A stretch of 64,000 nucleotides of DNA from Auriscalpium vulgare. Lineage: Eukaryota > Basidiomycota > Agaricomycetes > Russulales > Auriscalpiaceae. This document shows positions 12,015 through 39,673 of this stretch, in pieces. Made by a program: the position numbers and the translations under genes. Each line of letters starts with the position of its first letter. Position 1 is the first letter of the stretch. The notes below the pieces were generated by a model, which did not search any database, had not been told where the DNA came from, and saw only the letters and a list, made by a program, of their open reading frames with translations. The stretch covers positions 186,001 to 250,000 of the forward strand of contig JAHBBC010000010.1 in assembly GCA_019915015.1 (NCBI GenBank), given 5' to 3'.

Positions 12015-15008
12015 ATGGCGCCGAAACCCAAGATAGCCCACCTCCCAACGCGAACACAGCCGCAGAGGACCACAAGGGCGGACGCTCGCAATACGTCGCG
12101 ACAGGCGGCCATAGAGGCAGAAATCGCATCGCTATCAAGTCTGCCATCAGAAGAAGAGGATCCGCATGGACCGAACCTCAGTAGGGAGATCCGACGCGCC
12201 GGAGAGGACCCTAGGTCCCTGATCACAGGAGGGGATCGCGTCACGATCGAGGGACTAGAAGGTTTGCTTCTGAATTCTGATGGTTGCGATAGCGACCATC
12301 ACACACGGCATGATCCGGAGGGGGAATGCTCGAGGAACGAACGGGTCAGTCCGGGATGGGGACGGGCCGTTTCCTGACAAGATAGGACTTCGCGAAACGT
12401 CGCGGAAGCTAGCAACAATCCCCAAGAAGCTCTATCAAGCCGTTCGAACCCCAGCAACCCAAAGTCGCCAACACAGTCAGGAATGAGCACACAGCAACAA
12501 GGAACAGGAACGGGTGGAGGAGGCGGCGGCGGAGGCGGCGGCGGTGGAGGAGGGGGAGGCGGCGGACAACAGGCAATACCGCCTCAGCCCAACGTCGCGC
12601 CAGTCGCAATGCCTACCCGCGGGGACCGCAACGCACCGTCTTTCAATCAGAAAGCCCACGAGTTACCGCGTTACTTCGACGAGCTGAACCATCTCTTTGC
12701 CCGGGCTCAACTAGCGGATGATACGGCGAAGAAGGGCCACGCAGTGCGTTACCTAGACGTCGCGACGGCTGAGGAGTGGGAAGCGAGGCCGGAGTTTAAG
12801 GATCCCACCAAGACCTACCAAGACTTTCAGGACACCATTGTTAAACTGTACCCGGGAGCCGATGAGGACCGCAAGTATACCATCGCGGACATGGACGCGC
12901 TCGTAGGCAGTCGGTACCGTCTGGGCATTGCGTCCGGCGGCGAGCTCAGCGAATTCTATCGGCAGTTCTTCGCGATCACCGACTTCCTGGTTAAGAAAAG
13001 CAGGATCTCGACCCGTGAGCGCGATATCGCGTTCCTTCGCGCTTTCCAGGACAGCCTCATGAACAGGGTGGCGACGAGACTGCAGATCAAATTGCCGGAC
13101 CACGATAAAGAAACACCGTACCCCATGGCCGACGTACTAGAGGCAGGAGAGTACGAGCTGAGGGCCACTCCCTCAATCGTACCAGCGGTCAGCGCAGGAC
13201 CGGCAGTGGCGGTTGCAACGACGGAGCCTGTAATCAAAATAGAACAGTTTCAAGAAGCAATCAAAGCCGCGGTCGCCGAACAGTTCGCGCGGATGCTCGT
13301 CAACCAGGGGAACGGCGGAGGTCAGAGGGGTTATGGGGGTACCTCGGGAACTCAACAGCCGCGCGCCACGCAAGGAAATCAAGGCGGACAGGGGGGGCCG
13401 TCAGGATGCCTTTTCTGCGGCCAAACGGGGCACTTCGTCAGGGAATGTATGGTGGTCCAGGACTACATCGCGACGGGTCGCGTATCTAGGGACCACAACA
13501 ACCGGGTCGTTCTGAAGGGTGGAGGACTTATCCCGCTAGGAGAAGGCCCGCTGAAGCAGCGTGTGGATGCGTACTACGCCGGGAATCAACACGGACAGTC
13601 AGAAGCCATGATGCTGACGACGATGGACTACGAGCCGGTGCCGGCCAAAGTGCAGACGGTCGCCGGCCTAATCCAACTGACGCCGCAATTGACCGACGAA
13701 GACAGAATGACGGAGCTCCAGCAGGAGATGGCAGTACTCCTGACAGCCCGAGCGGAAAGGCAAGCTCAGAAGGAACGCCGGCAGGCCGCACTGGACGCGG
13801 GCGAGTTTCCCCAGGCAATAGGGCTGCTGCCTGGCGAGCGCGAAAGATCGCGACGAATCCCAGAGGTGGTCATCCCAAAGAGGAAGCCGTTTACGCAAGC
13901 CAAGAAGCAGGTTTCCTTCGAGCCGGAGGCAGTCGACCGACCAGGGGAGACTGGGGATAGCGCAGACAAACAAAGGCAGGCCGACGAGGACACCACAGCG
14001 GGTGAGGAGCCGTTAACACCTCCGATCCATCCTTTCGCGAAGGTGCCCGACGCGACGTACATAGGGCCGGCAAGTTACCAACGGAGCGCGGGGCAGCGCA
14101 AGGCGAACCCAGCATACAATAAGGTCGCCCCGGTCCGCGACCCCGTAATAGCAAATAAGGTTTATGAGAGGGCCATGAATGCGGAGGTCACCTTGACACA
14201 GAGGGAGCTCATGTCCATTGCCCCGGAAGTACGCGCTCAAGTTCGCAACGTGGTGACCCCTAAGCGGGTCCCAAACGAGGCAAGAGTACCAGTAGTCCAG
14301 GCGATGGTGGAAAGCGAACCAGAGCTCTTTCCGTTCGACTTTGACCAGGACGAAGGGGCAGGAGAGGACGAGAAGGTGGTGAGGGGATTCGCGGACCATA
14401 TGCCCGAAACCTTTCTGCAAGCCCTAGGACACCAGCCAACGGAGTTGCCCGAGGGGACGCGTGTAGGAGAAGTCATTGTGGAGGTTCTGATGGGAGATCT
14501 AGGAGAAGCAGGAGACGGGGAACCAGACCCTGAGCCGTTGGAAGTCGCCAAGGAATCGCTGGCCCTCCGTTCGATTTTGCCACTAGTCGACAACCAAGCG
14601 CACATCGAGGCAGTCGTGGATCCCGGGTCGCAGATTATTTCCATGTCCGAGGACGTATGCCATTACCTCGGGCTGCATTACGATCCGAACGTTCGCCTGG
14701 ATATGATATCGGCCAACAAAAGTCGCGATAGGTCGCTAGGCCTGGCTAGAAACGTCCCGATGAAGATTGGGGGTATAACGCTGTACGTACAGGTGCATAT
14801 CATCCGCAACCCGGCGTACGACATGCTCCTGGGGAGGCCCTTTGACGTTCTCACGGGAAGTACCGTGCAAAACTTTGCAGACGAGAGGCAGACAATCACG
14901 ATCACGGACCCCAACACTAGAGTCATGGCGTCAATCCCCACTATTCCACGCGGCCGCAAGCGCATCTCGCGAACCCAGAAGCAGGGGGTGGAGGGTTTTC
15001 GCGACTAG
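12015..15008 (+). pseudogene. gag: Gag-protease ORF of gypsy element A, one in-frame stop
   Basis: The frame opens at 12015 with MAPKPK, like the Gag of element B (MAPKAR), meets a TGA at 12375-12377 and stays open from there to a TAG at 15006-15008. The uninterrupted part from ATG 12483 is 841 aa. It contains a long Gly run, a capsid-type region (PTRGDRNAPSFNQKAHELPR), a CX2CX4HX4C knuckle (CLFCGQTGHFVREC, about residue 309 from 12483) and a retropepsin-type segment (AVVDPGSQIISMSEDV) near the end. The internal stop probably inactivates this copy unless translation starts at 12483. Pol follows in the -1 frame. Confidence 0.8.
14993..14999 (+). promoter_or_regulatory. -1 ribosomal frameshift heptamer, element A
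   Basis: In the Gag frame the bases fall as G GGT TTT, the canonical X XXY YYZ pattern, three codons before the Gag stop. The -1 frame is open across it and continues as Pol (GFSRLEDLLEDQEEVGLVVG). Element B has G GAT TTT at the homologous place. Confidence 0.65.
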
Positions 15009-20592: not shown

Positions 20593-20976
20593 CCATCTGC
20601 AAACCCCCTCTATACTAATTAGGTCTGCATTATATCTTATTAGCACTAATATGGATTAGCATTAGATTAGGGTAACCCTCCTCTAATTGCTGCATAATTG
20701 CACCTTAATTTCACACAGTTGGGACAACAAGGACATGTCTAATTTGGCTCTAATAAGTACATATCTATGCTAATATAGGAATGCGCGATGAGGCCATGTT
20801 GCTGCGAATTAGACACATATAAGCAAGCCGTTGCTATCACCCGGACTAGTTCAGGCTGAGTAATTAGTCTTATGTCAAATAGTTCATGCGATACCGAACT
20901 ACTTCAATATGACTATCAGTTAATATACTTCTACACCGCAGAATCCAAATAGTTTGATAGCGCGTCAGTCACCAAT
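20593..20976. other. AT-rich stretch, no gene
   Basis: Rich in TTAG/CTAAT words (TGGATTAGCATTAGATTAGG near 20650). Toward its right end appear TAGTTCA/GAACTA words that lead into the tandem repeat. Confidence 0.4.
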
Positions 20977-21590
20977 GATCTAGTTCACGCTGAAATACTT
21001 CAAGGCCAGTAGCACAATGAGCTAGTTCAACGTGAAGTAATTCAAGGGTGGAGTGCGGAATGATCTAGTTCACGCTGAAATACTTCAAGGCCAGTAGCAC
21101 AATGAGCTAGTTCAACGTGAAGTAATTCAAGGGTGGAGTGCGGAATGATCTAGTTCACGCTGAAATACTTCAAGGCCAGTAGCACAATGAGCTAGTTCAA
21201 CGTGAAGTAATTCAAGGGTGGAGTGCGGAATGATCTAGTTCACGCTGAAATACTTCAAGGCCAGTAGCACAATGAGCTAGTTCAACGTGAAGTAATTCAA
21301 GGGTGGAGTGCGGAATGATCTAGTTCAACGTGAAATACTTCAAGGCCAGTAGCGGAATGAGCTAGTTCAACGTGAAGTATTTCAAGGGGGGAGTGCGGGA
21401 TGAGCTAGTTCACGACAAAGTATTTCAAGGGGGGAGTGGGGGAATGATCTAGTTCATGATGAAGTACTTCAATGGGGGAGTGGGGGAATGATCTAGTTCA
21501 TGCTGAAGTATTTCAATGCGGCGAACTATTTCGAAGGAGTGGGAGATGATCTAGTTCGAAGAGATGGCAATGAACTACTTTGATGTCAGC
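20977..21590. repeat. 85-bp tandem repeat, decaying to half-units
   Basis: GATCTAGTTCACGCTG starts at 20977, 21062, 21147 and 21232, exactly 85 bp apart, and a fifth unit starts at 21317. Each unit is itself two related halves of about 42 bp (TAGTTCA-N-AAATACTTCAAGG and TAGTTCAACGTGAAGTAATT). After 21340 only degenerate half-units continue to about 21590. CGCTGAAATACTTC also occurs at about 33680 next to the KDZ transposase. Confidence 0.85.
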
Positions 21591-21638
21591 CAAATGACTA
21601 TACAAAAGAATGGTTCGACGCACGACGCACATGTGTCA

Positions 21639-22521
21639 TCAACCGTGAACGGCAGAGAAAAGATCAAAGACGTTGGGGGGTGATATATGGTCTCGACACC
21701 ATACAAAAAGCTCGGGCATGTCGGGGGCCTCAATCAGAACATCCTGCACAATGTCGTGAACCCAGAGATCAGCCGCAGGGTCGTACACCCATATCTTGTC
21801 CGTGGGCTTGACATCAAGATGCTCGTAGTCCTTCCAGTGGTCTTGGAGCCGGAATGAAGACCCGTCGTTCCACGCCAGTGTGCATGCAACCGGGTCTTCA
21901 TCTTTCTAATCAAAGAAGTCAGATCGCTTGACTCTTGGACAAACACAGACGACCGCTTACAGCAAGATATGCAATACTGAGAACGTGTGTGCGGACTGGG
22001 ACGTGTCCCTGTCCCACAGGAAACAGAGTGCGGCGTACGGGCTCCTCGGTTGGCAATACATCTGGAGGTGTGCGTCGTCTTTGAGATCGAGCAGGGGAAC
22101 TGGCGACCTGTCTTTTGTCACCACGCTGTTGACGAGACCTGCCGCGTACGGGAGACGACACGACATGTCGAGCTTCAGACAATGACTTGCACATGTCGAG
22201 TATTTCATTGTGTTGCACGTCTGAGAGAGGAGGCGTAAGGAAGATGATGTGTCGTTGTTCCTTGCACTGTGCAAGAGTCAGGAATGCCGCAAGAATTAAT
22301 TCATGACGTACCACTGTATAGTAGCGACCGAGATTTTCGTTCATAGAGCGGTACTGGATGTCGATAGCGGCAACACTATGATTGGGATTGCAAAACGGAG
22401 CCGTTCTCCCAGGCTTTCGTCCAGCAAGGCGAACTACGAAGGCCTTGAGCTGTTTCTGTGAAGAAGGGGGGAGAGTCTTCAGCACTCTTCGGTATTCAAC
22501 GTCTGAAACGTTCAGCATCAT
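21639..22521 (-). CDS. Spliced 275-aa protein of unknown function
   Basis: Exons 22521-21961 and 21905-21639 with a 55-bp GTAAGC...TTAG intron give an open 275-aa protein. It starts MMLNVSDVEYRRVLKTLPPS, has a Ser/Arg-rich middle (SPVRGRSRQQRGDKRQ) and ends with an aromatic, acidic domain (KDYEHLDVKPTDKIWVYDPA...LFVWCRDHISPPNVFDL). No known fold is recognised. It lies in the same orientation as the next two genes and next to the tandem repeat, as the third member of a presumed cargo module. Confidence 0.7.
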
Positions 22522-22837
22522 GCGGAAAGATCAAGGCGGGAGGGAGAGTCGGCCGGGGGGGAACTACGGTGAAAAAGGCCAAGGGTACCAACTATTTATT
22601 CCGGCCAGGAGTCTTGGCCGGCCGTAGTCACGCGGGACGATAATGTCATTGTTCGATTCAACTAGTTTGAAAGGACGGCCACACCCTCATAATCTATGGA
22701 TTTTCCGGCCACATGTCGTCAGCTATTGTGTAACGGACAGAACGAATACCGGTACAAGTTCACGTACATGTTTTTTGAACGCAAGCAACTCTCGTTTGGA
22801 AACTGTGGATTATTGCAACGACATAACAAATATACTA

Positions 22838-24890
22838 CTACTTCTTCGTCGTCTTACGCCGCTTAGCTGCCGGCTGAGTGTCACCGTTCTCCTTTTTCCC
22901 TGCCGGTTGCCCCCGTGTTGACCTCCGCACTATGCTAGTTGCTTCATCAACTGAGGCGCTTGCTACAGGAACCCTTGACCCCCAAAAAACCGATAAGTAA
23001 TGAGCGACGAGAGAATATTGCTAGCTTAAATACGTACAGTTCTTCATGGACCTGTGCTTGTGTATTACGACGACCTGAACGACGAGGTTCCTGTGGTGCG
23101 ACCTCTGCCACCTTTCTCTTGCGACCTCCCTTCGACTTGGAAGTTTGAATGCGCTCGACTGCGACTTCCTGAGCGGGTACGCCATCCTGAGCCACATCCT
23201 GAGCAGCTTCGGCGTCCTGAGCGAGGACACCCCCCTCAACAGCAGTGACCGCATCCCGAGCACCTTCGGCATCCTGATCGGGTACGCCATCCTGATTTTC
23301 AGTAGGAGTTGCCTGGTCCCGATGGGACGCTTCGTCTTTGTCTGTGTACGACAATGGGCCACTAGGGGGCATGTATTCAGGAATGTCAAGAGGAGGAATG
23401 CCGGCAGGCACGACTGTGGATGGCGTGTGATCTTGACTAGCGGAAGAGGTCTCAAAGATCGGGGACAGTATCTTCGGTTCCTCGACTGCCGGATCCCGCT
23501 GCGAAGGGCGCTGAGGAGTAGCCGACGCTCTCACAAAGCGCCGAGAACTCGTAGAAGGGGTGGCGGGCGTGGCGAGGCGTCGGGGAGTCTGTGGAAGCGT
23601 TGTAGCACCGTCATCGGGTGAGTTCTCTGATGCCTGTTCCACAGCAGTCGGATCCTGCATGCTTGGAAATACACGGGTGAGACACTCCGTCATGGCCGCC
23701 TTGAAAGATTTGTCGCTTCGCTCGATTTCATCCGCTATGCCAAAGCCGTCCTCGCCAGACGGATCAGAGGCACCCCTGCAAAGATGTAATCAGACAATCA
23801 TCATTTCAGCGGACTGAATGCGCGCACCACATCAATTGAAGGCCACCGACTTCGTTGAGAGTCCCGACAACAGTCAAGATAACGCAGTTCGTCTTCTGAG
23901 AATAGTCGGCGCGGATGTTTTGCAGGGTGTAGTCGAGATTGCGTAACATCCTGCGTACCGCTGATGAGACAAAGATATAGCTACATGGAATGATGGACGT
24001 ACGTTTGTCGAGCAGCTATTGCTTCCTCCGACCCCTCCGCTGCATCTGATGGTCCGGCCACGGAGTCCTTCGCCTGTTTGCGTCTGGCAGCCGCAGCCGC
24101 CTTCTCCTCTTCACTCAGGGCACTGTACTTTGCCACGGCCTCCGGATCGGCGCGATACGCCTCCCCAACTGCCTTGTTAACGTGCGCCTGGAGTTGGCTT
24201 TGAACGATCTCATCTCCGCTTGCCTTAGCGTTGTCGATGAATGTCTGGCGGGCGGTCTGCGCAACGTGATGGTTTTGAGGGTCGGCACGGAAGAGGTCGA
24301 GAGCACTGTGAGCACGGCCACCGGTGGGCACGTCCGTGAGTTGGAGAAACTTGGGAAGGGGTTCGGAGGTTGGAGCGTCGCCCGCATTCTTGCGAGCATG
24401 GTTGCTGATCCATTGTCTGACTTTCTACAAGTAGACGTGAGTTAGAGATGAAGAAATGGAGACAGTCGCACACGCACCTCCTTGCGCGCAATCCTCCTCT
24501 GTATCCACACCTCCGTGTCCTCCCGCACGCCGTCAACTTCTTTTCGCTCGACGGGAAACCTCTCGCAAAATGCCTCCACCATAGTTGACCGAAACGTCGA
24601 AGCTTGCGTTCTAGTGAACGATAGCTTGCAGTGTGTGCGGCAATACTGGACTAGCCAATCCCATTCTTCCTGTGTAGCCCAGCGAGGATTCGGCATGACG
24701 AGTGGATGGTGAGTGTGATGGGTGGAAAAGGACGTCGAATCTGTGAGTGAAGAGTAAGAGCAGGTTGAAGCTGGGTCCCGGTTCGAGTCTGCAAACAAAA
24801 GACCGTCAGTAGATACACGTACAAACAAAATATGCCTACGGCACCTGTGACGCGGGGAGTGTGGCCGTCATCGGCTAGCTCGGTCGCCAT
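22838..24890 (-). CDS. Spliced 591-aa nuclear-type protein of unknown function
   Basis: Six exons (24890-24845, 24788-24478, 24424-24003, 23950-23828, 23775-23038, 22973-22838) with introns of 52-64 bp sum to 1,776 nt, open throughout. The N-part contains PRWATQEEWDWLVQYCRTHC and KVRQWISNHARKN, a layout seen in Agaricomycete proteins of unknown function often found near transposons (my recollection, not tested). Then come an Ala/Glu helix, DYTLQNIRADYSQKTNCVIL, a long Ser/Thr/Pro region with degenerate VPDQDAEGARDAV-type repeats, and basic ends KGGRKRKVAEV and KRRKTTKK that look like nuclear signals. Preserved frames and splice sites argue for selection or recent arrival. Confidence 0.75.
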
Positions 24891-25005
24891 TGTTAGCGTG
24901 GGGACTTACTGCTTCAGTGGTGTTCGCTGTCGCGCAGGTAATCAGTGCAGCAAATCAATACAATCATAGCTGGAAAGATGTCAAGTATGTCAAATATAGA
25001 TACAC

Positions 25006-27243
25006 TCAGATCATGTCAAGTACAGATACAAAGTACACGTCAAGGTCCATCTCTGCCAGGTGCGCGAGACACTTCCGCTCGGTGAAATTGGGACGCGGCG
25101 TCCACGGTGAAGGATACCAGCCGAAAGTCACCATGAACGCTCGAACATAGCATGCCAGGAGCTGGCCCTCAACGTCAACGTAGACGTCGCGCGAGAGTGT
25201 CTGGAAAGTAAGGGCACGCAACTCTGCAGCTGTGTAACCCCGCCATGGATAGCTGTCGAAGATCGGCCAAGCACTGACGATTTCCCTGACTATGTCCAAC
25301 CACTCTCTCCGACCTTCCGGGTTGATCACCTCCCAGCCATGAAGCGAGTCGGCACCGAATGGCCAAATGAACCGAGAAACGAGCTCTTCGAAGGAGCCCT
25401 CCCTGACGAAGCTGGATGTGGCGCGAAGTGTGTGCTCCAGGGCATGCAGCTCATCGGCGATTGAGCAGAGGAGAGACTGGGCAACGACAGAGTATCGCAA
25501 CTCGCTGCTCTGAAAGACCTCCGCCGTCACGGGGCATCCACAGGCCATCGGCTGAATGGGATTGAGGTCGCCAGATATGATTTGCCCGTGGATTTGATCA
25601 CCAAACAGAAGGCGACCTCCATACCGGTAAAATGCAGCAGGGTCGTACGGCGTCCCTACGCTGGGTAGCGGCCAGCACTTTTTCCAGTATGTGTCGCCGA
25701 GAATCTCCCGCCAGTCTTTGGTGTCAAGGCCGTTGATCCCTCGCGCGCCGCCATCGGGAACATGAAGGTGGCGATCCCGGATGTAGGGAAAGAGCTGGAG
25801 GTAGCGCGTGAAGTAAAGGGCTTGCTTTTCTGACGTCTGAGCCCCCCAAAAAAGATAGTATGGTGGGTGGGAAAACATGCGGCGCTGGCGGCTCACGGAC
25901 TCATCGTTGCGCAACAAGCTCGGAGGATTGGTCCATTTAGCAGTGAAGTACAACATGGATATGGGAGGAAAGTACGCTGGGCTGTCAGCAATGTCCGATG
26001 ATCGACGGATCTCCTTCAAGTGCATAAGTCTGTCACGATTTTCCGTTGCTGTGGATTTCACATGAGCAAGAGAGCTGTCATATGAGAATAGGACAACGCA
26101 CCATGGCCGCGCTTCTGCTTGGGACCCTTCACGATTCCCATGGATGCTTGGTATTCGTCGGATGGATTGAGGCTGTCCTCCCGCGGACAGTGGCCCCTGG
26201 CTGCCGACTCGAAAGACCGAACATGCATGACATGAGGCGGGTAGAACCAAAGGGGCTTCGTATGCTTTTCGGTGACAGATCGCGGGCCCGTGAGGCGTCC
26301 ACGATCATGCAGTGGTGATCGAGGGCGCCAACGAGAAGGTGAGAGATCCCACTGCCCCGCACGGACAACCATGTAGACAGCCACATTCATGCGATGGTAG
26401 TCGTGGAACTGGGTGATAGTAGTTACGATGGAGCCGCGAGTACTCGGCCGAATGGGAGGGGCAGACCCGACAGGTTTCAGGATGTCATTCTTTTGATCTT
26501 CCCACCAGTTGCGGAAGGCAAAGACTTCGAGCAGGCCACGTTGTGCAGCGCGGAACAAATCCACGAAGTCATCCCATGACTGGACCCCATCCTCAAGACG
26601 ATAATAGCTATCTCGCGCACGTCGCAGCGCCTCGTCAGGAATTGTTACGTGAGCAACGGTTTTATGACGACGGGCCTGTGGGAAGACGGTGTTGGTGACC
26701 TTCCACGCATCGTTCAGCCTGGCGTGCAGAGGCTCTCGGACTTTGTCAGCCATTGTACGCCGGTGCCGGCCGTCCTTGTCAAGTGGCATCCACATTGTTT
26801 TATCGACCGAGTCCGTGAGAATGTCATTGGTGCCATGGTGAGGAACATTGATATACGCTAAGTAAGGCGAGGAGACGTCATAGGTTTGGGGTATGCGCGT
26901 CCACTCATACACGCCCCACAAGCCGTCGCTTTGGACGTGGACAGATGGCGGGGGGTCGGAAGGCATGGGACAGGGGATGAATGATGTGTTGGCTGCGATC
27001 ACGACGGTATCGGACTCGTCATCGGACGTCCAGAATGCTAGCGGGAACGGGAACGGAACCATCTCTTCGCGGCTGACCCTGTCCTAGAATTAGCGATCAG
27101 AATTGTAAATAACGTAGATTGAGACTCACGTAGGCAATCTTGAGGTCGACTACAACGAGGTGCGTGTTTACCGTACGATCAACCCAACGTGAACCCCGCG
27201 TACTACAAGCCGGCACATTAGTGTCTGAATTAATAGAATGCAT
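25006..27243 (-). CDS. Spliced 712-aa protein of unknown function
   Basis: Exons 27243-27130, 27083-26102 and 26048-25006 (introns 46 and 53 bp) give 2,139 open nt. The start MHSINSDTNVPACSTRGSRW was chosen as the first ATG of the open exon; the region upstream is the palindrome arm. Visible segments: REEMVPFPFPLAFWTSDDES, WEDQKNDILKP, GDTYWKKCWPLPSVGTPYDP, and near the C-terminus RREWLDIVREIVSAWPIFDS and YPWRGYTAAELRALTF. No enzymatic motif is recognised. With its two neighbours it forms a co-oriented block between the 85-bp repeats and the 28-kb palindrome. Confidence 0.75.
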
Positions 27244-27289
27244 GGTGAACCACGTACGGAGTCTACACCGATGTGGCGCAGACAGAGGT

Positions 27290-28590
27290 ACGAGAGAGAC
27301 GCGGACCGCCGCACAATGCAAACCGCGGAGCAGCACTGCACAGTGGCGAAGAAGCAGAGGGATGTGGGAGAGCACACGCAGCCTGCTCGGAGTAGACGAC
27401 ACGTCAAACTCTCTGCAAACTGGATGCACTGGAGAGAGGGGCAGAGCGGCGGAGGGCGCTGAGGTCCAACGGGTGACGCCTGTTGCTGTTAAATCAGACA
27501 ATGAGCACGAGCACAGACATGGCGATAGAGCAGCGAGAGCGCACCTGGAGAAAGCGGCCGGAGTCCGAGCGGGCGGCGAGTGGTGCTGTAAAATAACAGT
27601 TAGTAGGCACAAATGCATGGATTCGGCCAAAAAAAAACACACCGAAGGGAGCCGGAGTCTGTCGCGGGCGTTCCGGGAGGGGCAGGGACAGAGCAAAGGG
27701 TGAGAGCAGAGTGGGGACACGCGCACGCCGCTGCCTTCGCTCACGGAGACCCGGAGGTTGGAGACGCCGAGCAGGACGCGCGGTAGGGAATAAAGCAGAG
27801 GGACGGGGGGTAGCACGTACAGCACGCTCGGAGTAGACGGCACGTCCGACTCTCTGCGTACTGACCCCCCGGGGGGGGGGGGCGGGGCGGGGAAGGGCGG
27901 AGGGTGAAGGTGACGTGGCACGAGAAGTGCGACTTGATGATGATAGCAGCTGTGGACTTAGAGTTCACACTCAGCGCAAGTCGGGCGCTGCCGGTTGAAG
28001 TCTGAACTCTAAGTCCACAGCTGCTCGCATGACAAGTCGCACTTCTCGCGCCACGTCACCTTCACCCTCCGCCCTTCCCCGCCCCCCCCCCACCCCCAGT
28101 GTGTTCAGTACGCAGAGAGTCGGACGTGCCGTCTACTCCGAGCGTGCTGTACGTGCTACCCCCCGTCCCTCTGCTTTATTCCCTACCGCACGTCCTGCTC
28201 GGCGTCTCCAACCTCCGGGTCTCTGTGAGCGAAGGCAGCGGCGTGCGCGTGTCCCCACTCTGCTCTCACCCTCTGCTCTGTCCCTGCCCCTCCCGGAAAG
28301 TCCGCAACACACTCTGGCTCCTTCGGTGTGTTTTTTCTTCTCTTCTGCGATTTTTCTCACTGATTGTTATTTTACAGCACCAGTCGCCGTCGGCTGAGAC
28401 ACCCACACCCTCCTCCTTCCCCACCAGCAGAGAGTCCGACGTGCCGTCTACTCCTACATTGTCCTATCCCCTCTGCACTGCAGCGCACACAGCCCGCGAA
28501 GAGTTTGACGTGCCGTCTACTCCGAGTGAGCTGCGGGTGTTCCCCCACGTCTCTCTGCTTCCTCCGATCGTCTCTGTGTCTCCAACCTTG
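27290..28590. repeat. Large palindrome (inverted repeat, ~27-bp loop)
   Basis: Inner arms of about 390 bp (27580-27974 and 28002-28390) are highly similar in reverse complement: GGACTTAGAGTTCA/TGAACTCTAAGTCC at the centre, the C/G run, GAGTAGACGGCACGTCC, and CTGTAAAATAACAG at the outer edge. A weaker match continues to about 27290 and 28590 (GAGAGTTTGACGTG...TCTACTCCGAG). The left arm leads into the 5' end of the 712-aa gene, the right arm into the cyclin pseudogene. Arms hold no protein gene of their own. Confidence 0.85.
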
Positions 28591-28740
28591 GACCGCGTGT
28601 CGCAAGGTGTGTTCACGGTACGTCCAACTTCGTAGCAATACTCTGCGCTTGCTCACTATTTTTGTTCATAGCGCGCCAACCTCATGCGATCCGTACGAGT
28701 TCATCCCTCCCTCCCCGCCCCATACCAGCCCCCGTCCCCC

Positions 28741-29641
28741 ATGGCCACCGTCTCCGGTCCTCCCGTCGCTCGGCACCCGTCGCCCGCCTTCCGCAAGGCC
28801 CACAAGATCTCCCGCCCGTCCGCACACGGCGCGGCCCCTTCGGTGCGCATCCCCCGCGCTTTCCTTTGTTCTATATATATTCATCTCCGCCTCAGTCGGT
28901 GAGCGATCCGTACCACGGCCATGAGCCGACAGCGAAGCTCTGTGCTAGATTCGTCTCGCACCTCTTCGCCTGTCCCGACCTCCCTCCCCTCCCCGCGCCC
29001 CCAACCAACGCGCCCAACCCGCGCCTGGAGCACTTCATTGCATATGCGCTGCACCGCACCCGGCTGCACGCATCGTTACCTTCGCCGCCCTCTACCTCCT
29101 CCAGCGTCTGAAGGCCCGGTTCCCCGCAGCGAAGGGCTCCTCCGGCCATCGACTGTTCATCTCTGCCTTCATGATTGCTTCCAAGATCATTTGCGACGAC
29201 ACATACAGCATCAAGAGCTCGTGTATCGTCGGCCAGGGCATGTTCGCGCTCCGCGAAATCAACCAGATGGAGCGCGAGATGTGTAGCTATCTCGAGTGGT
29301 AGCTCAATGTTGACCCCGCCACCCTGCACGACTTTGAGATCCAGGTGCGCCGCGACTTCGCCGGCCCGGGCCCGTACTCTCCCATCTCCCTCCTGACGCC
29401 CGCGCCTTCGCCGTTCGCACACCCCGGCGCCAGCACGGCGTCGAGCGTCCCGTCGTTCGGGCACCGCGCGTCGCCCGGGGCCGCGCCCATCATGATCCCG
29501 AGCCTGACGATCACGTACCCCTCGCCGGCCTCGCCGCCTGACACCCCCGAGACCTCCCTCACATTCCGCGTTGAAGTCCCACGTGTACTCCCGTCGACCC
29601 CGCTCGACTCTGCGCAAGGCGAGGAGGTTGTCATCTTATGA
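28741..29641 (+). pseudogene. PCL-type (Pho85) cyclin pseudogene
   Basis: ATG at 28741 (MATVSGPPVARHPSPAFRKA), an intron GTGCGC...CTCAG, then SDPYHGHEPTAKLCARFVSH and RLEHFIAYALHRTRLHAS. Here one base is missing (about 29073) and the cyclin box continues in the next frame: VTFAALYLLQRLKARFPA, HRLFISAFMIASKIICDD, MFALREINQMEREMCSYLEW. A TAG at 29300-29302 stands where related cyclins have Gln, then LNVDPATLHDFEIQVRRDFA and a Pro-rich tail to 29641. The order is that of Pcl1/2-like cyclins that activate the Pho85 kinase. With a frameshift plus a nonsense codon it cannot make the full protein. Confidence 0.8.
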
Positions 29642-30037
29642 GCTGCGGTCGTGTGCAGCCCGATTTCCGCAGGCGTGGAGGGGGTCATGTTCTCGTCGCA
29701 CCCGATAACCGCCTAGTGCGCCCAGTTTGCCTACGCTACATTGACGATCCTCCTTGCTCATGTGGTTATGCTGTCCTGTATGTGCTTGCTCGTCTGCTCC
29801 CCTCCTAATGGCAATTTTATCTTTGTACTATATGACACGTATATCCAGTTCACACTTGTCAGGTAGCCTATCCCGAAATTGTAGTTGGACTTCGTATCAT
29901 AACTCTGCTTACAATTATCCGTTTTCCATTGTTCCTGCCAGTGTGGCCGGTCTGGTGCACATGTGCTTGCTTGGACCGTCAGTACCCTCCACACTGACAT
30001 TATTCTCTCACTCTGTCCTTGCTGCTGCAGTATTGCG
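29642..30037. other. Upstream region of the KDZ gene
   Basis: No ORF of interest. A tract rich in T and C and ending CTGCTGCAG precedes the transposase ATG, so part may be an untranslated exon or intron of that gene. Confidence 0.35.
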
Positions 30038-33000
30038 ATGGCCCCTGCAAAAAAGCGCAAATACGAGCCGTCGCGTGCAGCCGTACTGGACAAAACCATC
30101 AAATTAGTTCACCGACGTTGCAACGGTGATGTTGACAAGCGACAGGTTCCCCTGGGCATCCGCGCCCTCGCTGCCAGGCCCGAAAAGCCAACCATCTCGT
30201 ATCTGCCGACAATCGAGGAAGAGAGTGAGATGGAGAGGGCGGCTGAGGAGGAAGAAATGGCTCCTGCGTCAACAAGCAGATATATTGTGAGTTTGGATTA
30301 CATGTCTGATGCCTCGGTGTTCTAACGAGACCTGGTAGCCAATGCACACTGTCAACAGCGAATGGCGTACTGAGTGGGCCCCAAAAATGTTGGAGGCCAT
30401 CTTAGGCTACGAGGCTGCAGATGACCTTGGCCGCCCTTGCTCCGCCGCTGGCTGCTCGAGCACCGCAGCTGACATCCGTTGTCGTGACTGCTTCTATCGT
30501 CGAATGCTCTGCAGAGACTGCGCCGTCAAAATTCACCTCGATAACCCGTTTCACCAAGTGGAGGAATGGGTCGGCACGTACTTCAAGCGCAGAGGACTTC
30601 AAGAGCTAGGCCTCGTCATCCGCCTTGGACATGGGGGCGACAACTGTCCCTTCGCCAAGGAACCTGTTTCGATGACAGTGACCCATGTCAACGGCATTCA
30701 CACTTGCAATGTCCAGTTCTGCGGCTGCTTTCCACCCGACAAGTATAATCCTGTCGATGTCCCACTGCAGCTGGCAAACGCAGGGCTCTGGCCCGCGTCA
30801 TATAAGAACCCCCGAACGGCGACAACTTTCCACTCAGCACGGGAGTACAATCAGTTCTCCCTCCAGGCCAAGGTGAATGTGATGGACTACAACCGTGTCA
30901 AGCTGCGCATGACAAACAACGCTTTTCGTGACGACGTACCGGTGAGTTTATCTTGCGCTCATCATGACTGTCGCCCATGCTGATCCTCGCAGGATCGATA
31001 TAGGCAGCTTCTCACAAGCCAACGACAATTCATGTTCATCCAGACGCTCAAGCAGTTTGGAGCGAGTGTACAGGATCGATACGCCGCCGGAAGTCTCGTC
31101 GTCCTATGTCCTGCCTGTCCTCAACCTGGGAAGAACATGGACCCCGGTTGGAAAGACGTACCAGCAAAAGACCAGTTGAGTACACTCAAATATATCAGAG
31201 TTCGCTGTCTGCTGACGCCGCGTGCAGATACATCCATGCACTGTTTTATGCAAAAGACGGGAACTTTCAGCTCCATCAACACATGAAGAAGATGGATCTT
31301 GATGACGTCGCGTTCACGAGGGGCGGTGGTTATTATGTTGATGATGTTGAGTGTGCGAATCACCTCAAGATCATGGACAACGACCCGGATAGCAGCAAAG
31401 AGGTACGTATGCAACCGTCTACAATTGACGAAGTATCTCACATATCGTAGACGTCGACGTGCAACAAGTTCTTTGCTCTCAATGGCAAGCGACTCGACGG
31501 CAAGCGCATCACGGGAGTGGTGTCTTTAGTATGCGCACCGCACGGGATGATCATGGGGTCCTCAACCGTTGACTTGACGAAAGGCGAAAGGTGCGTTGTT
31601 GTCGTCCAATCACATGTTTGTGAGCCTCACTTGTTGAGCTAGATTTGCCCATGTGGACCTTGCGACGGTGTCTGCGACACGCCCATACAAAGATCTCAAG
31701 TTGCACATCTCTTCATACGATATCAATTGTCAATACGGAATTAACTTCGACACGCGCATGGACAAATTTCCGTCCGGTCGTCCAGACTTTCCCCTTACCA
31801 TCCGTGTCGTTCCTAAATGGCACTTGAATGGGCACAAGGATGACTGCAAGTTTCTCAACTCGCCGGATGTCACTCCTGGGTGTGGCATGACGGAGGGCGA
31901 GGCGCCTGAGCGTCGGTGGGCCGTGCAGAATTCACTCGCACTTCAGACAAAAGAGATGGGGCCAGGGTACCGCCACGACACGCATAATGTTCACAACGGA
32001 GATTTCAACATGCAGAAAATCTTCACGATAGGTGAGTATAGCTCCTGCGTATCTTCTGTTTGTTGCGCGCTGACTGCAATCAGCCAAGTTTCTTGCAAAA
32101 AAGCTGGACCAAGCAAAGTCTGCCGCGGCGGAAGCTGAAGAGCAACATGAACGTTGCGAAGCGACCTTCAATTTCCGCGGACGTCCACTGGACGAGTGGC
32201 GGACTGCCGAAACCGAGTTCTTGACCACACTTGCCGACGGAACGGCACGAAAGGACCAGCCAAAAGTCAGCCCGTATGAACCGGCGAGTGACAAAGGTGT
32301 GAAGTCGTTTTTAAATTTTGCGCTCACTTGAACTAATATATCTTGTCTTAGCACCGACCGAGAAGGAAGCGTTGCTGATTTTGGAGAAGGAGTTTGACGC
32401 TGAGCGGGGCACAGCAAGCGAGGAACATGGTCGGCCAAGCCTCACTGCATTTCTGAAGCTTGGTCTCGACTTGGAGGCGCGACAGTACGTCTTTCTTGCA
32501 ACACACTTCAGGTATTCCCCTAACATGTTTGAATAGGTACGATGTACAAAGCAAGGCAAAGCAAAAGGAGCTGTCAGGTGCCGAAAAAACCGCTATCGAA
32601 GACAGCCGATCGCGCCTTGACACTCAGATTGCACGCTTCGAGGACCTTCACGCTGCTATCGTGGCCCCGACAGTCCTCAGGCTTGAAAGTCCAGAAACGA
32701 GCTGGCCGGCACCGCGTTCTGACCAAGATGTCCTAGCCGAGGACGTCCAACTTCGCTTGCCATCGACATACCCCATGGACGTCAGGCAGAATTCCTTATT
32801 TAAGTCTCTAGCGGAGGCAGAGCTCCTTCTGCGAAAAGGTCGGGCTTGTGATCTTCTGCGGGAGCTACGCCTCAAGATTTCATTGAAGTCCTTCCTGTGG
32901 AGGTCAGAGAAGGCGTCGTATGGCCAAGAGGCGAAGACACGCCACCAGAAGATGGTCACTCGCGCTTACCAGGCAACCGCCCGACTTCGCCATCTATACA

Positions 33001-33641
33001 CTACAATGCGGTCGAACATGCTCACGCTAGGGCTCCAGGAGGATGACAAGAACTATCGGCCGCTAACGGAACATGACTGTCGCGTCGTGGCCCTCGTTCA
33101 TGCTGTTGAAGACCACGACACATCATCGAAGGACCGTGAGCGCTCGTGGCTCTGGCGCGATGGTGAGTATTGGGCTTCTGACTCGGATGACGCTACAGCA
33201 AAATGGGATGAAGAGCGTGAGTCCCTTTGATTATACGTGCTTGGTACCCAGCTGACATCATGATAGTTGACCGTCTCACCTGGTTCCGATCGAGTGCGAA
33301 GCAAGCTCGCTGGCAGGAACATGTCAAGCGCCTGGAAGAATCGATACGGAGGACGCAGCGGCATTGGTACGATGAGCAACAGGTTTGGCTGAGTCGTGCA
33401 GAAGCACAGGGCAGTTCATTAAGTCAACGTGGTGCCGCCGCATATGCTGCACGGTCGGTTTCTAATTCATACTCTGACAATGAAGTATCTGACATTCAAG
33501 CGTAGGAAAGCTGCAGTATTTGCGCGTCTGCTGTCTGATGCGAGGGAGCTCTACCCTGAGTACCTCAGGCTGTCGGATACTGAGGTCAGTACTGATATTG
33601 TCATAGACACTTCTACCTTGCTGACCTGGGAGCCCAGGTAG
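30038..33641 (+). CDS. KDZ-family transposase with CxC2-type cysteine cluster, apparently intact
   Basis: Eleven exons (30038-30286, 30339-30941, 30993-31174, 31228-31402, 31451-31590, 31643-32031, 32084-32296, 32352-32484, 32537-33216, 33267-33453, 33506-33641) sum to 3,087 nt, 1,028 aa, without a stop. Residues 1-10 carry a basic signal (PAKKRKYE). About 115-160 is the cysteine cluster CSAAGCSSTAADIRCRDCF...CRDCAVKIHLDNPFH. The RNase-H-like core shows GVVSLVCAPHGMI...TVDLTKGE, SSYDINCQYGINFD, HLNGHKDDC and GCGMTEGEAPERRWA, the usual D...D/C...H-K-D...E order of KDZ enzymes. The C-terminal helical part ends RLTWFRSSAKQARWQEHVKR. It should cut and insert its own DNA in the nucleus. A 3' partial copy lies inverted at 36.3-38.8 kb. 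Confidence 0.88.
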
Positions 33642-33991
33642 CATTACATGACTGACAAGCAATGGGTATGAATTAGTTACTTCGCTGAAATACTTCCACT
33701 GTACATTGCGTTGGAGTAGTCCCACTATACATTGCGGTGAAATAGTTGCATTCGACAGACACAAACTAGTTGCGCATGGAAATATAATCTAACTAGTTGA
33801 ACATGGAAATGTAATGTGGATATAGTTCATCCTCGAACTAGTTCGTGTTTTTTTCTTAAGGGTATCCTACCTGTCAGGCTCCAGAAGCCTACAGTACTAG
33901 TGCTAAATACTCGACCGTCATAGTCGGCGTTGAACTAGGTCAACGCCCAGTAATTACTCATTTGAACTACTTCAGTTGTCTGCAAGTACTG
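31457..33991 (+). repeat. Arm 1 of a 2,535-bp near-identical inverted repeat
   Basis: From ACGTGCAAC (exon 5 of the KDZ gene) to GCAAGTACTG. The reverse complement occupies 36281-38815 with the same length. In the about 330 bp past the stop codon only a handful of substitutions and one T-run length change were seen. The terminal 340 bp hold TAGTT/GAACTA motifs (TTGAACTAGGTCAACGCCC). Confidence 0.9.
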
Positions 33992-34079
33992 TATAAGCAA
34001 TGAATACTACATAATAACAGTGCACTCACAAGGCTACACCGGTGCGCCACCGCGACGACATTGCTCGTACTGCTCGGAG

Positions 34080-36280
34080 CTACCCTTGGGCCTTCGGCTT
34101 GTTGAAGAACGCTGCAAAGCCCTTGGTGTTCACAATGCCGTCGTCCGCGTCGCTGGAGGACGCATCTTCACCCTCAGCATCGAACTCGTTGGGATCACCA
34201 GAACCTGAAGTTCTGAAGTGAAAAGACCGCGTCACTCAGATTAGCGTGTGGTGAAAGACGACATAGCAAGTCACTTGGGCTCACGAAGCACTCGCACTCT
34301 CGTACAGCCGCGCTAGCAGCTCCCAGAATCCATCGGCGTTTGTCTTCTTCAGCAGCTTCAAGCGCTTCAGGTGGTCCTGGTAGACCGGCTTGAACTGGTC
34401 AGCAGTGAAGTCGACCTTGCTCGCAGTGCCTGGGGCGAGTTGGAAGCTGAGCAGACCTGCATCGATCTGGATTGCCGTCTCGCGGCTGCCCATCAAAAAA
34501 CCCGCACACTAGAAAGGATGAATGACGTACCGTGGTTGCCACAAATGCGAGCATAACAGGTGGCACAACCGGCTTGTCGAGACCAGGCGCCACCGCAACA
34601 TATGCTGCCTTGGGGAAACGGAACGGCGCATTGGGACCAAAGAACTTGTCCTCGAGAACATCGACGATGGCCTGGTGGCAGAATGGAAGCACAGTCGTAA
34701 ACTTCATCGTCTGGCAAGCCAAAATAAACAAATCATCAGTGCGATGCCGATCACGAGAGCAGGAAGGCGGAGGACATACCGCGATACTCCCAGGGAAAAC
34801 GTACAGGCGCCCCTTCGGCCCTTCTGTGAGGATGCGCTTCATATTCTTGACGTATACGTCGTGCGGAATGGCCTTGAGGTTGTACGCGTTCTTGACAATC
34901 GAGGCAGCCATCTTCTTAACCTCGGATCGAAAGATGGGCATGCGCGCCTCGGGCTGTGAAAGTCGGGGCAAACATATCAGTGTTGATCGATCAGGTGGCG
35001 AGGGACTCACCAGAACGGCCATTAGCTCCTTATATGCTTCGTCCTCCTTCAGTCTCGCCACTATGTCTTTATCGTGGAGCTCAGTAGCTGCGGAGATGAG
35101 GGCGTCCACGATGTACGCCTGGCGAGCGCCATCCGCAGGATACGCGTTCCTGAAGAACATGAACTTGGGGACGCCGTTCGCAATGCCGCGCTTGATCACT
35201 GCAGCGACTCGCCGGTGCTGGTCGCCCATGGTCATTCGAGTCCGCCCACCTTTCTCCGGCAGCACCACGTCTGTATCCGCGGGCCAGTCGCCTTGTTGTT
35301 CTTGTGGCGTCGCATGCGCCCCTTGTGCTCGCCCAGTCTTGCTAGGAATGCCGTCACGCGCGCGGTCGTCCTCAGGCTGTTGTCCCTCCTGGCTGTTGTT
35401 GTCTTCTGAATCCTCGATCGTGAGCTGCTCCATGCGTACGGATGGGCCGGCGATGTCGCGCTGTCAATGTGTGTGTGTAAGTATTGCGCTGCGCCCGCTT
35501 AGACTGTGGATTGTACGCGCCTGGGACGGGGCGATGCTTGGTGCCCTCAAAACCTAGACGTCTTCAATCAGCATCTGATCAACTTGATTCTTGTATATCA
35601 AGCGGTCGTCTCACATACCTTTTCCCTGCCTATCAACGGCGGGAGGCCGTCGCTGTCCGAGTTGCCGCCATCTTCGACAATGACGACGGCGGCCTTGTTG
35701 AGCTTTAAAGATTTTTTCTGTAGGTGTAGTGACGATGAAACAATACAATCAGTCAGACGGCAGCCAACAGAACACGACGCGACGCACCTGTGCGCTCCGA
35801 TGCGCGCCTTGCGCGCCGCCGCTCTGTATGTGTGACAATGGAAGAATGCAACCAGTCAGACACAGCAGCCAAGACTCCACGACACGACGCACCTGTGCCC
35901 TCTGATGCGCGCCATGCGTGTTGCCGTCTGTCGCGGGCAAGCGGCTGTTACTGCCGTTGGTGGCGTTTCCTGTAACAACGACTGGGGGGTTGTTCCCGCT
36001 CTTGGATGGCTTTTTCCGAGCCTGTGCGAGTAGTGAGTGGCGACGGCCGTGTACCAAGCAGCCAGTGAAGATCCAGCGGCCAATGAGGGCAACGCGGCGC
36101 ACCTGAGTGACCTGTTGCGCGTCCTGCGTCTTGCCGTCCTTTGTAACAGTCAATCACCTTTGCGCGCGCCGTCTGGACATGAAAACATACCTCAGAGCCG
36201 TGCCCGCGACGGTCCTGACTCGGCACGCCCGTGCCCTTCGCCGGTTTTTTGCCCTTCACTCGAGATGAAGTCGCGGCTGG
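34080..36280 (-). pseudogene. DUF6532-like gene, 5'-truncated, between the inverted arms
   Basis: Minus-strand exons follow each other in phase: SSRVKGKKPAKGTGVPSQ, several very short exons, KSLKLNKAAVVIVEDGG, then the main exons with QHRRVAAVIKRGIANGVPKF, EARMPIFRSEVKKMAASIVK, MKRILTEGPKGRLYVFPGS, TTVLPFCHQAIVDVLEDKFF, FRFPKAAYVAVAPGLDKPVV, FKPVYQDHLKRLKLLKK and an acidic tail ending FAAFFNKPKAQG at 34080. This is the order of the DUF6532 proteins common in basidiomycetes (function unknown). Three introns are multiples of three without stops. The reading runs at its 5' end straight into the repeat arm at 36281, so the native start has been lost. Confidence 0.7.
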
Positions 36281-38815
36281 CAGTACTTGCAGACAACTGA
36301 AGTAGTTCAAATGAGTAATTACTGGGCGTTGACCTAGTTCAACGCCGACTATGACGGTCGAGTATTTAGCACTAGTATTGTAGGCTTCTGGAGCCTGACA
36401 GGTAGGATACCCTTAAGAAAAAAACACGAACTAGTTCGAGGATGAACTATATCCACATTATATTTCCATGTTCAACTAGTTAGATTATATTTCCATGCGC
36501 AACTAGTTTGTGTCTGTTGAATGCAACTATTTCACCGCAATGTATAGTGGGACTACTCCAACGCAATGTACAGTGGAAGTATTTCAGCGAAGTAACTAAT
36601 TCATACCCATTGCTTGTCAGTCATGTAATGCTACCTGGGCTCCCAGGTCAGCAAGGTAGAAGTGTCTATGACAATATCAGTACTGACCTCAGTATCCGAC
36701 AGCCTGAGGTACTCAGGGTAGAGCTCCCTCGCATCAGACAGCAGACGCGCAAATACTGCAGCTTTCCTACGCTTGAATGTCAGATACTTCATTGTCAGAG
36801 TATGAATTAGAAACCGACCGTGCAGCATATGCGGCGACACCACGTTGACTTAATGAACTGCCCTGTGCTTCTGCACGACTCAGCCAAACCTGTTGCTCAT
36901 CGTACCAATGCCGCTGCGTCCTCCGTATCGATTCTTCCAGGCGCTTGACATGTTCCTGCCAGCGAGCTTGCTTCGCACTCGATCGGAACCAGGTGAGACG
37001 GTCAACTATCATGATGTCAGCTGGGTACCAAGCACGTATAATCAAAGGGACTCACGCTCTTCATCCCATTTTGCTGTAGCGTCATCCGAGTCAGAAGCCC
37101 AATACTCACCATCGCGCCAGAGCCACGAGCGCTCACGGTCCTTCGATGATGTGTCGTGGTCTTCAACAGCATGAACGAGGGCCACGACGCGACAGTCATG
37201 TTCCGTTAGCGGCCGATAGTTCTTGTCATCCTCCTGGAGCCCTAGCGTGAGCATGTTCGACCGCATTGTAGTGTATAGATGGCGAAGTCGGGCGGTTGCC
37301 TGGTAAGCGCGAGTGACCGTCTTCTGGTGGCGTGTCTTCGCCTCTTGGCCATACGACGCCTTCTCTGACCTCCACAGGAAGGACTTCAATGAAATCTTGA
37401 GGCGTAGCTCCCGCAGAAGATCACAAGCCCGACCTTTTCGCAGAAGGAGCTCTGCCTCCGCTAGAGACTTGAATAAGGAATTCTGCCTGACGTCCATGGG
37501 GTATGTCGATGGCAAGCGAAGTTGGACGTCCTCGGCTAGGACATCTTGGTCAGAACGCGGTGCCGGCCAGCTCGTTTCTGGACTTTCAAGCCTGAGGACT
37601 GTCGGGGCCACGATAGCAGCGTGAAGGTCCTCGAAGCGTGCAATCTGAGTGTCAAGGCGCGATCGGCTGTCTTCGATAGCGGTTTTTTCGGCACCTGACA
37701 GCTCCTTTTGCTTTGCCTTGCTTTGTACATCGTACCTATTCAAACATGTTAGGGGAATACCTGAAGTGTGTTGCAAGAAAGACGTACTGTCGCGCCTCCA
37801 AGTCGAGACCAAGCTTCAGAAACGCAGTGAGGCTTGGCCGACCACGTTCCTCGCTTGCTGTGCCCCGCTCAGCGTCAAACTCCTTCTCCAAAATCAGCAA
37901 CGCTTCCTTCTCGGTCGGTGCTAAGACAAGATATATTAGTTCAAGTGAGCGCGAAATTTAAAAACGACTTCACACCTTTGTCACTCGCCGGTTCATACGG
38001 GCTGACTTTTGGCTGGTCCTTTCGTGCTGTTCCGTCGGCAAGTGTGGTCAAGAACTCGGTTTCGGCAGTCCGCCACTCGTCCAGTGGACGTCCGCGGAAA
38101 TTGAAGGTCGCTTCGCAACGTTCATGTTGCTCTTCAGCTTCCGCCGCGGCAGACTTTGCTTGGTCCAGCTTTTTTGCAAGAAACTTGGCTGATTGCAGTC
38201 AGCGCGCAACAAACAGAAGATACGCAGGAGCTATACTCACCTATCGTGAAGATTTTCTGCATGTTGAAATCTCCGTTGTGAACATTATGCGTGTCGTGGC
38301 GGTACCCTGGCCCCATCTCTTTTGTCTGAAGTGCGAGTGAATTCTGCACGGCCCACCGACGCTCAGGCGCCTCGCCCTCCGTCATGCCACACCCAGGAGT
38401 GACATCCGGCGAGTTGAGAAACTTGCAGTCATCCTTGTGCCCATTCAAGTGCCATTTAGGAACGACACGGATGGTAAGGGGAAAGTCTGGACGACCGGAC
38501 GGAAATTTGTCCATGCGCGTGTCGAAGTTAATTCCGTATTGACAATTGATATCGTATGAAGAGATGTGCAACTTGAGATCTTTGTATGGGCGTGTCGCAG
38601 ACACCGTCGCAAGGTCCACATGGGCAAATCTAGCTCAACAAGTGAGGCTCACAAACATGTGATTGGACGACAACAACGCACCTTTCGCCTTTCGTCAAGT
38701 CAACGGTTGAGGACCCCATGATCATCCCGTGCGGTGCGCATACTAAAGACACCACTCCCGTGATGCGCTTGCCGTCGAGTCGCTTGCCATTGAGAGCAAA
38801 GAACTTGTTGCACGT
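36281..38815 (-). pseudogene. Arm 2: inverted 3' copy of the KDZ transposase, 5'-truncated
   Basis: Near-identical reverse complement of 31457-33991. It carries exons 5 (partial) to 11 with all splice sites and the same stop (36631). The 5' half (exons 1-4, the cysteine cluster) is missing: homology ends at 38815, exactly where the LTR of element B begins. Frames are still open; exon 9 differs by one Met/Thr change. It cannot encode a full transposase. Confidence 0.88.
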
Positions 38816-39673
38816 TGATGGGACCCGCAGCGCTACAGGCACCGAAACGGACCAATCACACCGCTACACCAAGACACACACCCCCGAGACGCCCCACAGG
38901 CGTCGCGGCACCGGCACGACCACGGGACAGCACAAAGCGAGCGAGCGTCTGGGGAGGAGACGGAGAGCCGAGGTAGGGAGTCGGAACGGTCGGGCGCGGA
39001 ACTTGGTAGGACGCGTAGGAGCGCAGACGCGTGGGAAGAGCTGACGAAGCAGCGGTATATAGACGCGATTCGACTTGTTGTAGGGACACTTTTGGACCTT
39101 GGGCCTACACCCGAGACTACACCTTTCATTCCTGCTTCACAGAGAGCATCGCACGACGCGACACAGCCAGACCACTGGGCCGACACGATGCCTTAAACCA
39201 GGAAGCCGTAGCGACATCCGGGTCGCGCCACCTTTGCGATACCACGGGCTACGCTGCCCCGACTCAACCACAGACTGGAGTGATACAGTGTGGTAGGTTT
39301 TATGACTGACGTTTATATTCCAGGATAGCGACTCGGACGGTACGAGCGCGGGGACACAGGTCGGACGGTCGGACGGCAAGGGCGACTCCGCAACTAGGAC
39401 GGACCGGCGGCGACAGACGGGAGGGTCGCACCGAATAGTGTGGGAAGAGACGCAACGTGCGACGGTCGGACGGGAGCGGAGAGAGAGAGAGAGAGGGGGA
39501 GAGGGCCGCAGGACGAGGGCAGGACCCGCGGGGTCCTGGGTGGTTTGTTCGGGGCACGGTCGCGATCTTGGGTTTCTTTCTCCGACCCACTACCTCTTGG
39601 GCCAGCGGTTGGCTGCTCGCTCCCTCCATTTCTATCGACGTTCCCGGGGCCTCCCCCAGGGTTCACCTCATCA
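38816..39673 (+). repeat. 5' LTR of gypsy element B
   Basis: Begins TGATGGGACCC directly after CACGT, where the KDZ copy is broken, and ends CTCATCA before TTTG and the primer site. The left edge is fixed by loss of identity with the other KDZ copy. No second copy of this LTR lies in the window. Confidence 0.6.
39056..39062 (+). promoter_or_regulatory. TATA box in the LTR of element B
   Basis: TATATAG about 240 bp into the LTR, in the sense of the gag-pol genes. Confidence 0.4.

Follow-up and report, generated by a model that had tools for sequence, protein, structure and literature searches.

Here we describe a mobile element in a 64,000-nucleotide stretch of the Auriscalpium vulgare genome (assembly GCA_019915015.1, contig JAHBBC010000010.1, positions 186,001 to 250,000; hereafter the window, whose own numbering is used throughout). 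The element spans positions 20825-33991 on the plus strand (13,167 bp), as delimited by copy alignments, flank reading and an empty site, and comprises a KDZ transposase gene, three further genes, a long palindrome, a cyclin-like pseudogene and repeated motifs near both ends. A previous reading of the sequence alone (the initial annotation) had inferred a 13-kb KDZ unit with three genes at this place, and the unit is borne out by common ends, 7-bp target-site duplications, an empty site and further copies, with its left boundary moved from 20593 to 20825. We put the probability at about 0.9 that the window holds a whole KDZ-group DNA transposon, one whose target duplication is Kyakuja-like and with which three accessory genes travel.

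The transposase gene (30038-33641, plus strand) encodes 1,028 amino acids and is intact as first annotated, being open over 11 exons. A Pfam scan covering 1,010 of the 1,028 residues detected the KDZ domain PF18758 (147.8 bits against a cut-off of 26.6, E 4.7e-43) and the CxC2 domain PF18803 (E 5.9e-25). The three other genes lie on the minus strand and are designated by their length in codons: ORF275 (21639-22521, 2 exons), ORF591 (22838-24890, 6 exons) and ORF712 (25006-27243, 3 exons). All three are open, co-oriented and intron-bearing, as had been stated, and their products of 275, 591 and 712 amino acids belong to no Pfam family. The palindrome that the initial annotation mentioned is located at 27574-28395, with arms of about 363 bp and a folding z-score of -42 against 20 shuffled sequences. 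It is followed by the cyclin-like pseudogene (28900-29640, plus strand), whose reading frame is interrupted by a stop codon and, in the window copy, also by a frame break; the straight translation of the copy termed C10b below matches Cyclin_N with E 1.5e-9. Related sequences occur outside the element at 85-90% identity on contigs C15, C10 and C2 and at 69-74% on C13, C2 and C3, and the fragment looks like a decayed captured host gene. The KDZ domain is abundant in this genome, with at least 168 matches counted exon by exon, and Plavaka accounts for 127 matches.

Extent, ends and copies of the element

Using the transposase gene as a probe, we found at least 13 loci in the 51.6-Mb assembly containing the window (all locus counts are lower bounds), and up to 10 kb on each side of the 12 other transposase matches was taken for comparison. 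Both ends could be read at nine loci, namely in the window and in the copies C47, C4 (two), C1, C2, C10b, C48 and C28; the remaining copies are C22, C3, C19 and C38. Several copies align to the window as a single block from about 20826 to 33991, the repeat array excepted. The 5' terminus is AAGCCGTTGC in the window element and GAGCCGTTGC in all eight of the others for which both ends were read, and the 3' terminus is GTACTG.

The initial annotation had found neither ends nor a target duplication, but both exist. The heptamer TATAAGC stands at 20818-20824 and again at 33992-33998, as revealed by flank comparison; the empty site described below has it once. A 7-bp direct duplication and the common ends were seen in nine of nine loci read at both ends, and the duplicated sequence varies by locus, as do the flanks, which are unalike; the duplications were identified by eye on printed flank sequence. 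In the window copy taken alone, the direct repeat is 9 bp long (TATAAGCAA). The duplication length of 7 bp follows from the comparison with the eight other copies, and the extension to 9 bp is attributed to chance; therefore the element is 20825-33991.

The empty site lies on contig C45, where the left flank, one TATAAGC and the right flank are continuous and hold no element. Identity between this stretch and the spacer to the right of the window element is 92%. The stretch also lacks the second element that stands further right in the window, with three substitutions around that target. It represents an empty site, be it allelic or paralogous. Thus, the alignment of other copies and the search for empty sites, both proposed by the initial annotation, yielded nine duplications and one unoccupied target, which show that the unit has moved as a whole.

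The left subterminal region contains 85-bp tandem repeats (20974-21516) carrying the words TAGTTCA and TACTTCA. The longer word CGCTGAAATACTTC occurs four times in this array and once at 33683-33696. TAGTTCA is found 16 times in the left 766 bp (20825-21590, mostly array) and three times in the right 350 bp (33642-33991), compared with two occurrences in the 12-kb interior and none in the two flanking stretches counted. These counts agree with the sharing of words between both ends that had been noticed in the sequence, and the subterminal arrays are probable protein-binding sites, a prediction made from their composition and placement. The outermost 46 bp at left and right form a degenerate inverted match (left arm 20825-20870) with an alignment score of 9, the best of 2,000 random interior pairs scoring 6; no clean terminal inverted repeat was seen in the comparison of the ends.

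Partial copies accompany the longer ones. The right subterminal and terminal region (33642-33991) is present, whole or in part, at 14 loci, which are the 13 transposase loci and an end-only match on C39. A left end alone was matched at C2:2594655, an additional left end and a second ORF275 adjoin the C28 element, and the similarity of the C38 copy to the window element starts at 29305.

The second element in the window is the inverted copy C10b, whose 3' part lies at 36281-38818 on the minus strand and is broken from about 38816 by sequence of long terminal repeat (LTR) elements. The interruption extends over about 27 kb, from 38816 to about 65953 (past the end of the window), between 858-bp direct repeats that are 99.9% alike, and it holds LTR-retrotransposon genes, including a 2,709-codon minus-strand frame with matches to reverse transcriptase, an integrase zinc-binding domain and a chromodomain. 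The insert probably consists of nested LTR elements. The spacer between the two inverted elements contains a 105-bp repeat in about two copies (35729-35918). Further to the left, an 876-codon frame at 12378-15008 has a gag-type aspartyl protease match and is probably a fragment of another retroelement.

The accessory genes, their relatives and their constraint

Close relatives of ORF712, ORF591 and ORF275 are present at 12 of the 13 transposase loci, C38 being the exception, and the co-occurrence of the genes with KDZ that had been put forward for checking is thereby upheld. At the C3 locus, the accessory genes lie up to about 23 kb from the transposase, with other sequence intervening. Among the matches listed, no close block of the three genes was seen away from a transposase locus, and no transposase copy stopped shortly before 30 kb at terminal repeats belonging to it. 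In searches of the protein collection, all three genes find their nearest relatives in A. vulgare, at 89% identity for ORF712, 66% for ORF591 and 81% for ORF275. Each of these orthologues sits on a contig of 6,706 bp and two of them have consecutive locus tags, so that they probably stand on the same contig as a block. Another relative of ORF591, partial, lies on a contig of 2,319 bp. For ORF712, A. vulgare, Artomyces pyxidatus and Dentipellis fragilis together supply four more relatives (30-34% identity), and all five of its relatives found in the collection are from the Russulales. A divergent relative of ORF591 (30-41% identity) was also observed at C44:102955-104619; all listed KDZ matches lie at least some 40 kb away from it.

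To the extent that substitution patterns can tell, ORF712 and ORF275 are under purifying selection. In these counts, residues at less than 40% local identity were removed first, which somewhat lowers the rate of nonsynonymous substitution (dN). Against the divergent copy C10b, ORF712 has a synonymous rate (dS) of 1.03 and a dN/dS of 0.132 (95% bootstrap interval 0.097-0.164; 649 of 712 codons), and against C22 a dN/dS of 0.098 (520 codons). For ORF275, the ratio against C10b is 0.228 (0.156-0.312; 264 of 275 codons), and for the transposase against C19 it is 0.135 (0.107-0.171; 1,019 of 1,028 codons). Across these different lineage pairs, ORF712 is constrained as strongly as the transposase, and ORF275 a little less so; this suggests a need of the element for both. 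Of seven full-length copies that are nearly identical, all have an open transposase, six an open ORF591, five an open ORF275 and three an open ORF712; a stop at codon 704 of ORF712, present in five of six other copies compared, was not scored as a break.

Several observations weigh against a complete, living element that depends on its accessory genes. All four genes are open in just two of the seven near-identical copies (the window and one on C4), and this minority of intact sets speaks against a strict need for the genes. The dN/dS of ORF591 is 0.69 (0.36-1.51), the copies compared being too similar to show selection, and near-identical pairs of the other genes give wide, uninformative intervals. 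None of the three products matched a Pfam family above cut-off, ORF591 being searched there and for homologues as a 545-residue model without its first 46 residues. The structure prediction that the initial annotation recommended was run on the A. vulgare orthologues of ORF712 and ORF591 and gave models of low confidence (mean pLDDT 60.2 and 41.2); a fold search with the ORF712 model returned nothing at E 0.001, and sequence searches of PDB with both orthologues returned nothing at that threshold and one chance-level match (0.56). Furthermore, ten divergent relatives of ORF712 occur in the genome, on C47 (two), C13, C52, C10, C23, C2, C4 (two) and C22. None of them lies within 10 kb of a listed KDZ, Plavaka or Transposase_21 match, and two are 12-13 kb from a KDZ match among those listed, distances that rest on the listed part of the 168 KDZ matches (150 of 204 candidates scored). 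With relatives so far from the listed transposase matches, genes of the ORF712 family exist outside this element too, and these relatives may belong to other, unrecognised mobile elements. Lastly, nothing demonstrates present-day movement of the element.

Such observations lend some weight to the possibility that the element carries the three genes as neutral passengers, which would once have been host genes, became trapped between its ends and have no role for it. The broken cyclin-like fragment shows that passenger capture is possible, ORF712 is broken in four of the seven near-identical copies, and its family has divergent members elsewhere in the genome. However, neutral carriage sits poorly with the low dN/dS of ORF712 and ORF275 across deeply diverged element lineages and with the fact that all three have been kept at 12 of 13 loci and that their A. 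vulgare orthologues probably form a block. We regard it as unlikely. Less probable again is that the genes mainly serve the fungus and use the transposon as a vehicle, like the contents of cargo-carrying giant elements. Conservation of their coding sequences relative to the A. vulgare orthologues speaks for this view, but no enzyme, resistance or metabolic domain was found in the three genes above the Pfam cut-off, and the listed close copies are all at element loci, except for an additional ORF275 close to the C28 element. Duplication of a chromosomal segment, to which the length and near identity of the copies might point, is rejected as having next to no likelihood, given the unlike flanks and locus-specific 7-bp duplications at the nine loci read and the presence of an empty site.

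The initial annotation had proposed a new cargo set; the joint travel of the three genes stands, but purifying selection on ORF712 and ORF275 fits element-serving genes at least as well as cargo, and that label may be wrong.

Lineage composition of the window copy

When the window element is compared with other copies in separate 250-base steps, its similarity to them changes along its length. Identity to C10b is 98-100% over the transposase gene and over 22825-24574, which includes most of ORF591, and 93-98% over the cyclin stretch; it is 76-78% over most of ORF275, 72-82% over ORF712 and 56% in the step over the start of ORF712. The C3 and C22 copies show the C10b-type pattern in the parts compared. 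In C19 the pattern is reversed, with 98-100% identity to the window in the compared part of ORF712 and 74-92% in the transposase half.

The sites at which C10b and C19 differ place the transition more narrowly (gapped sites were omitted and, up to 29049, also those where C3 differs from C10b). The window agrees with C19 at 396 of 404 such sites in 27060-28250, is split 3 to 2 in 28251-28300, and agrees with C10b at 54 of 58 in 28301-28700, 28 of 43 in 28701-29049 and 254 of 269 in 29094-31460. Over a 721-base stretch of ORF591, it follows C10b at 59 of 62 sites. The switch from C19-type to C10b-type sequence thus falls within 28260-28337, most likely at 28283-28299, in the right arm of the palindrome. 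Arm-to-arm identity is 98.2-99.7% in palindromes of the C10b type and 98.6% in C19, compared with 91.3% in the window, and such a low value is expected if the window palindrome was assembled from two palindromes.

By this pattern of identities, the window version is a mosaic, in which the transposase half and most of ORF591 are C10b-like and the sequence from ORF712 into the right arm of the palindrome is C19-like. ORF275 probably came with ORF712, according to protein scores (175 bits for C19, 171 for the window and 129 for C10b). We infer that the mosaic arose through recombination between element copies. A recombinant window lineage is the simplest reading, which a fourth, unseen lineage could alter.

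A broader generalization is tentative and, in our view, doubtful, namely that KDZ elements swap gene modules, with the central palindrome as the preferred exchange point between accessory and transposase halves and with most of ORF591 kept beside the transposase since both proteins act jointly on the subterminal repeats. It is weakened by the 5' end of ORF591 (24575-24890), which is just 84-90% identical to C10b and so departs from the lineage of the transposase; ORF591 was not inherited whole with it. A role of the palindrome as a recombination hot spot is unsupported by one switch, as the palindrome accounts for about 6% of the element's length and there are further changes outside it, two in number, at about 22.8 and 24.65 kb.

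Relation to known elements and possible roles

The PF18758 domain, together with movement as a unit with target duplication, places the element in the KDZ superfamily. Kyakuja elements, as characterized in the cited part of a recent study (Kojima 2025, PMC12730594), have duplications of 7 bp, termini of the form CA..TG and TET/JBP genes, lack terminal inverted repeats, and occur in Agaricomycetes including Russulales. The window element resembles this description in its KDZ-group transposase, 7-bp duplication, 3' TG and possession of accessory genes inside the unit. As to terminal inverted repeats, the comparison points both ways, with no clean repeat but a degenerate one of 46 bp that outscores the random interior pairs. 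The element differs in having three other genes with no TET/JBP domain found, and a 5' end of GA (eight copies) or AA (the window) instead of CA, which makes the Kyakuja label provisional. Zisupton elements share the transposase superfamily but are characterized in the same part of that source by 8-bp duplications and terminal inverted repeats (PMC12730594), whereas the window element has 7 bp at nine of nine loci read and only a degenerate repeat. The likeness to Kyakuja is one of ends and target duplication. In CACTA/En-Spm elements, short motifs are arrayed subterminally on either side, and a second DNA-binding protein is encoded; the window element is comparable in its end arrays and in a candidate extra binding protein, ORF591, but has another transposase and another target-duplication length.

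Two candidate identities of the accessory genes were tried and set aside. TET/JBP was sought in Pfam scans of the four gene products and the three orthologues and gave no domain match, although a relative recognizable by structure only could escape such scans. A possible homeodomain-like N-terminus in ORF591 had no Pfam support. No description of ORF275, ORF591 or ORF712 was found in the portions of the literature searched.

In the mechanism that we propose, the transposase would bind the TAGTTCA/TACTTCA arrays at both ends via its CxC2 cysteine cluster, perhaps together with ORF591, and would then excise the element and insert it with a 7-bp stagger. ORF712 and ORF275 may aid the element in transposition, expression or escape from silencing, much as has been suggested of the TET/JBP genes that other KDZ elements carry.

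In at least some mushrooms, KDZ elements are a common component of the genome; the cited part of the Marasmius oreades genome report calls them understudied (PMC8290104). The accessory genes of the KDZ elements described in the cited part of the study above are TET/JBP dioxygenases (PMC12730594). With exact ends, an empty site and two copies in which all four genes are open, the roles of accessory genes other than TET/JBP become testable, and the mosaic demonstrates that modules for accessory genes and for the transposase can enter new combinations inside one genome.

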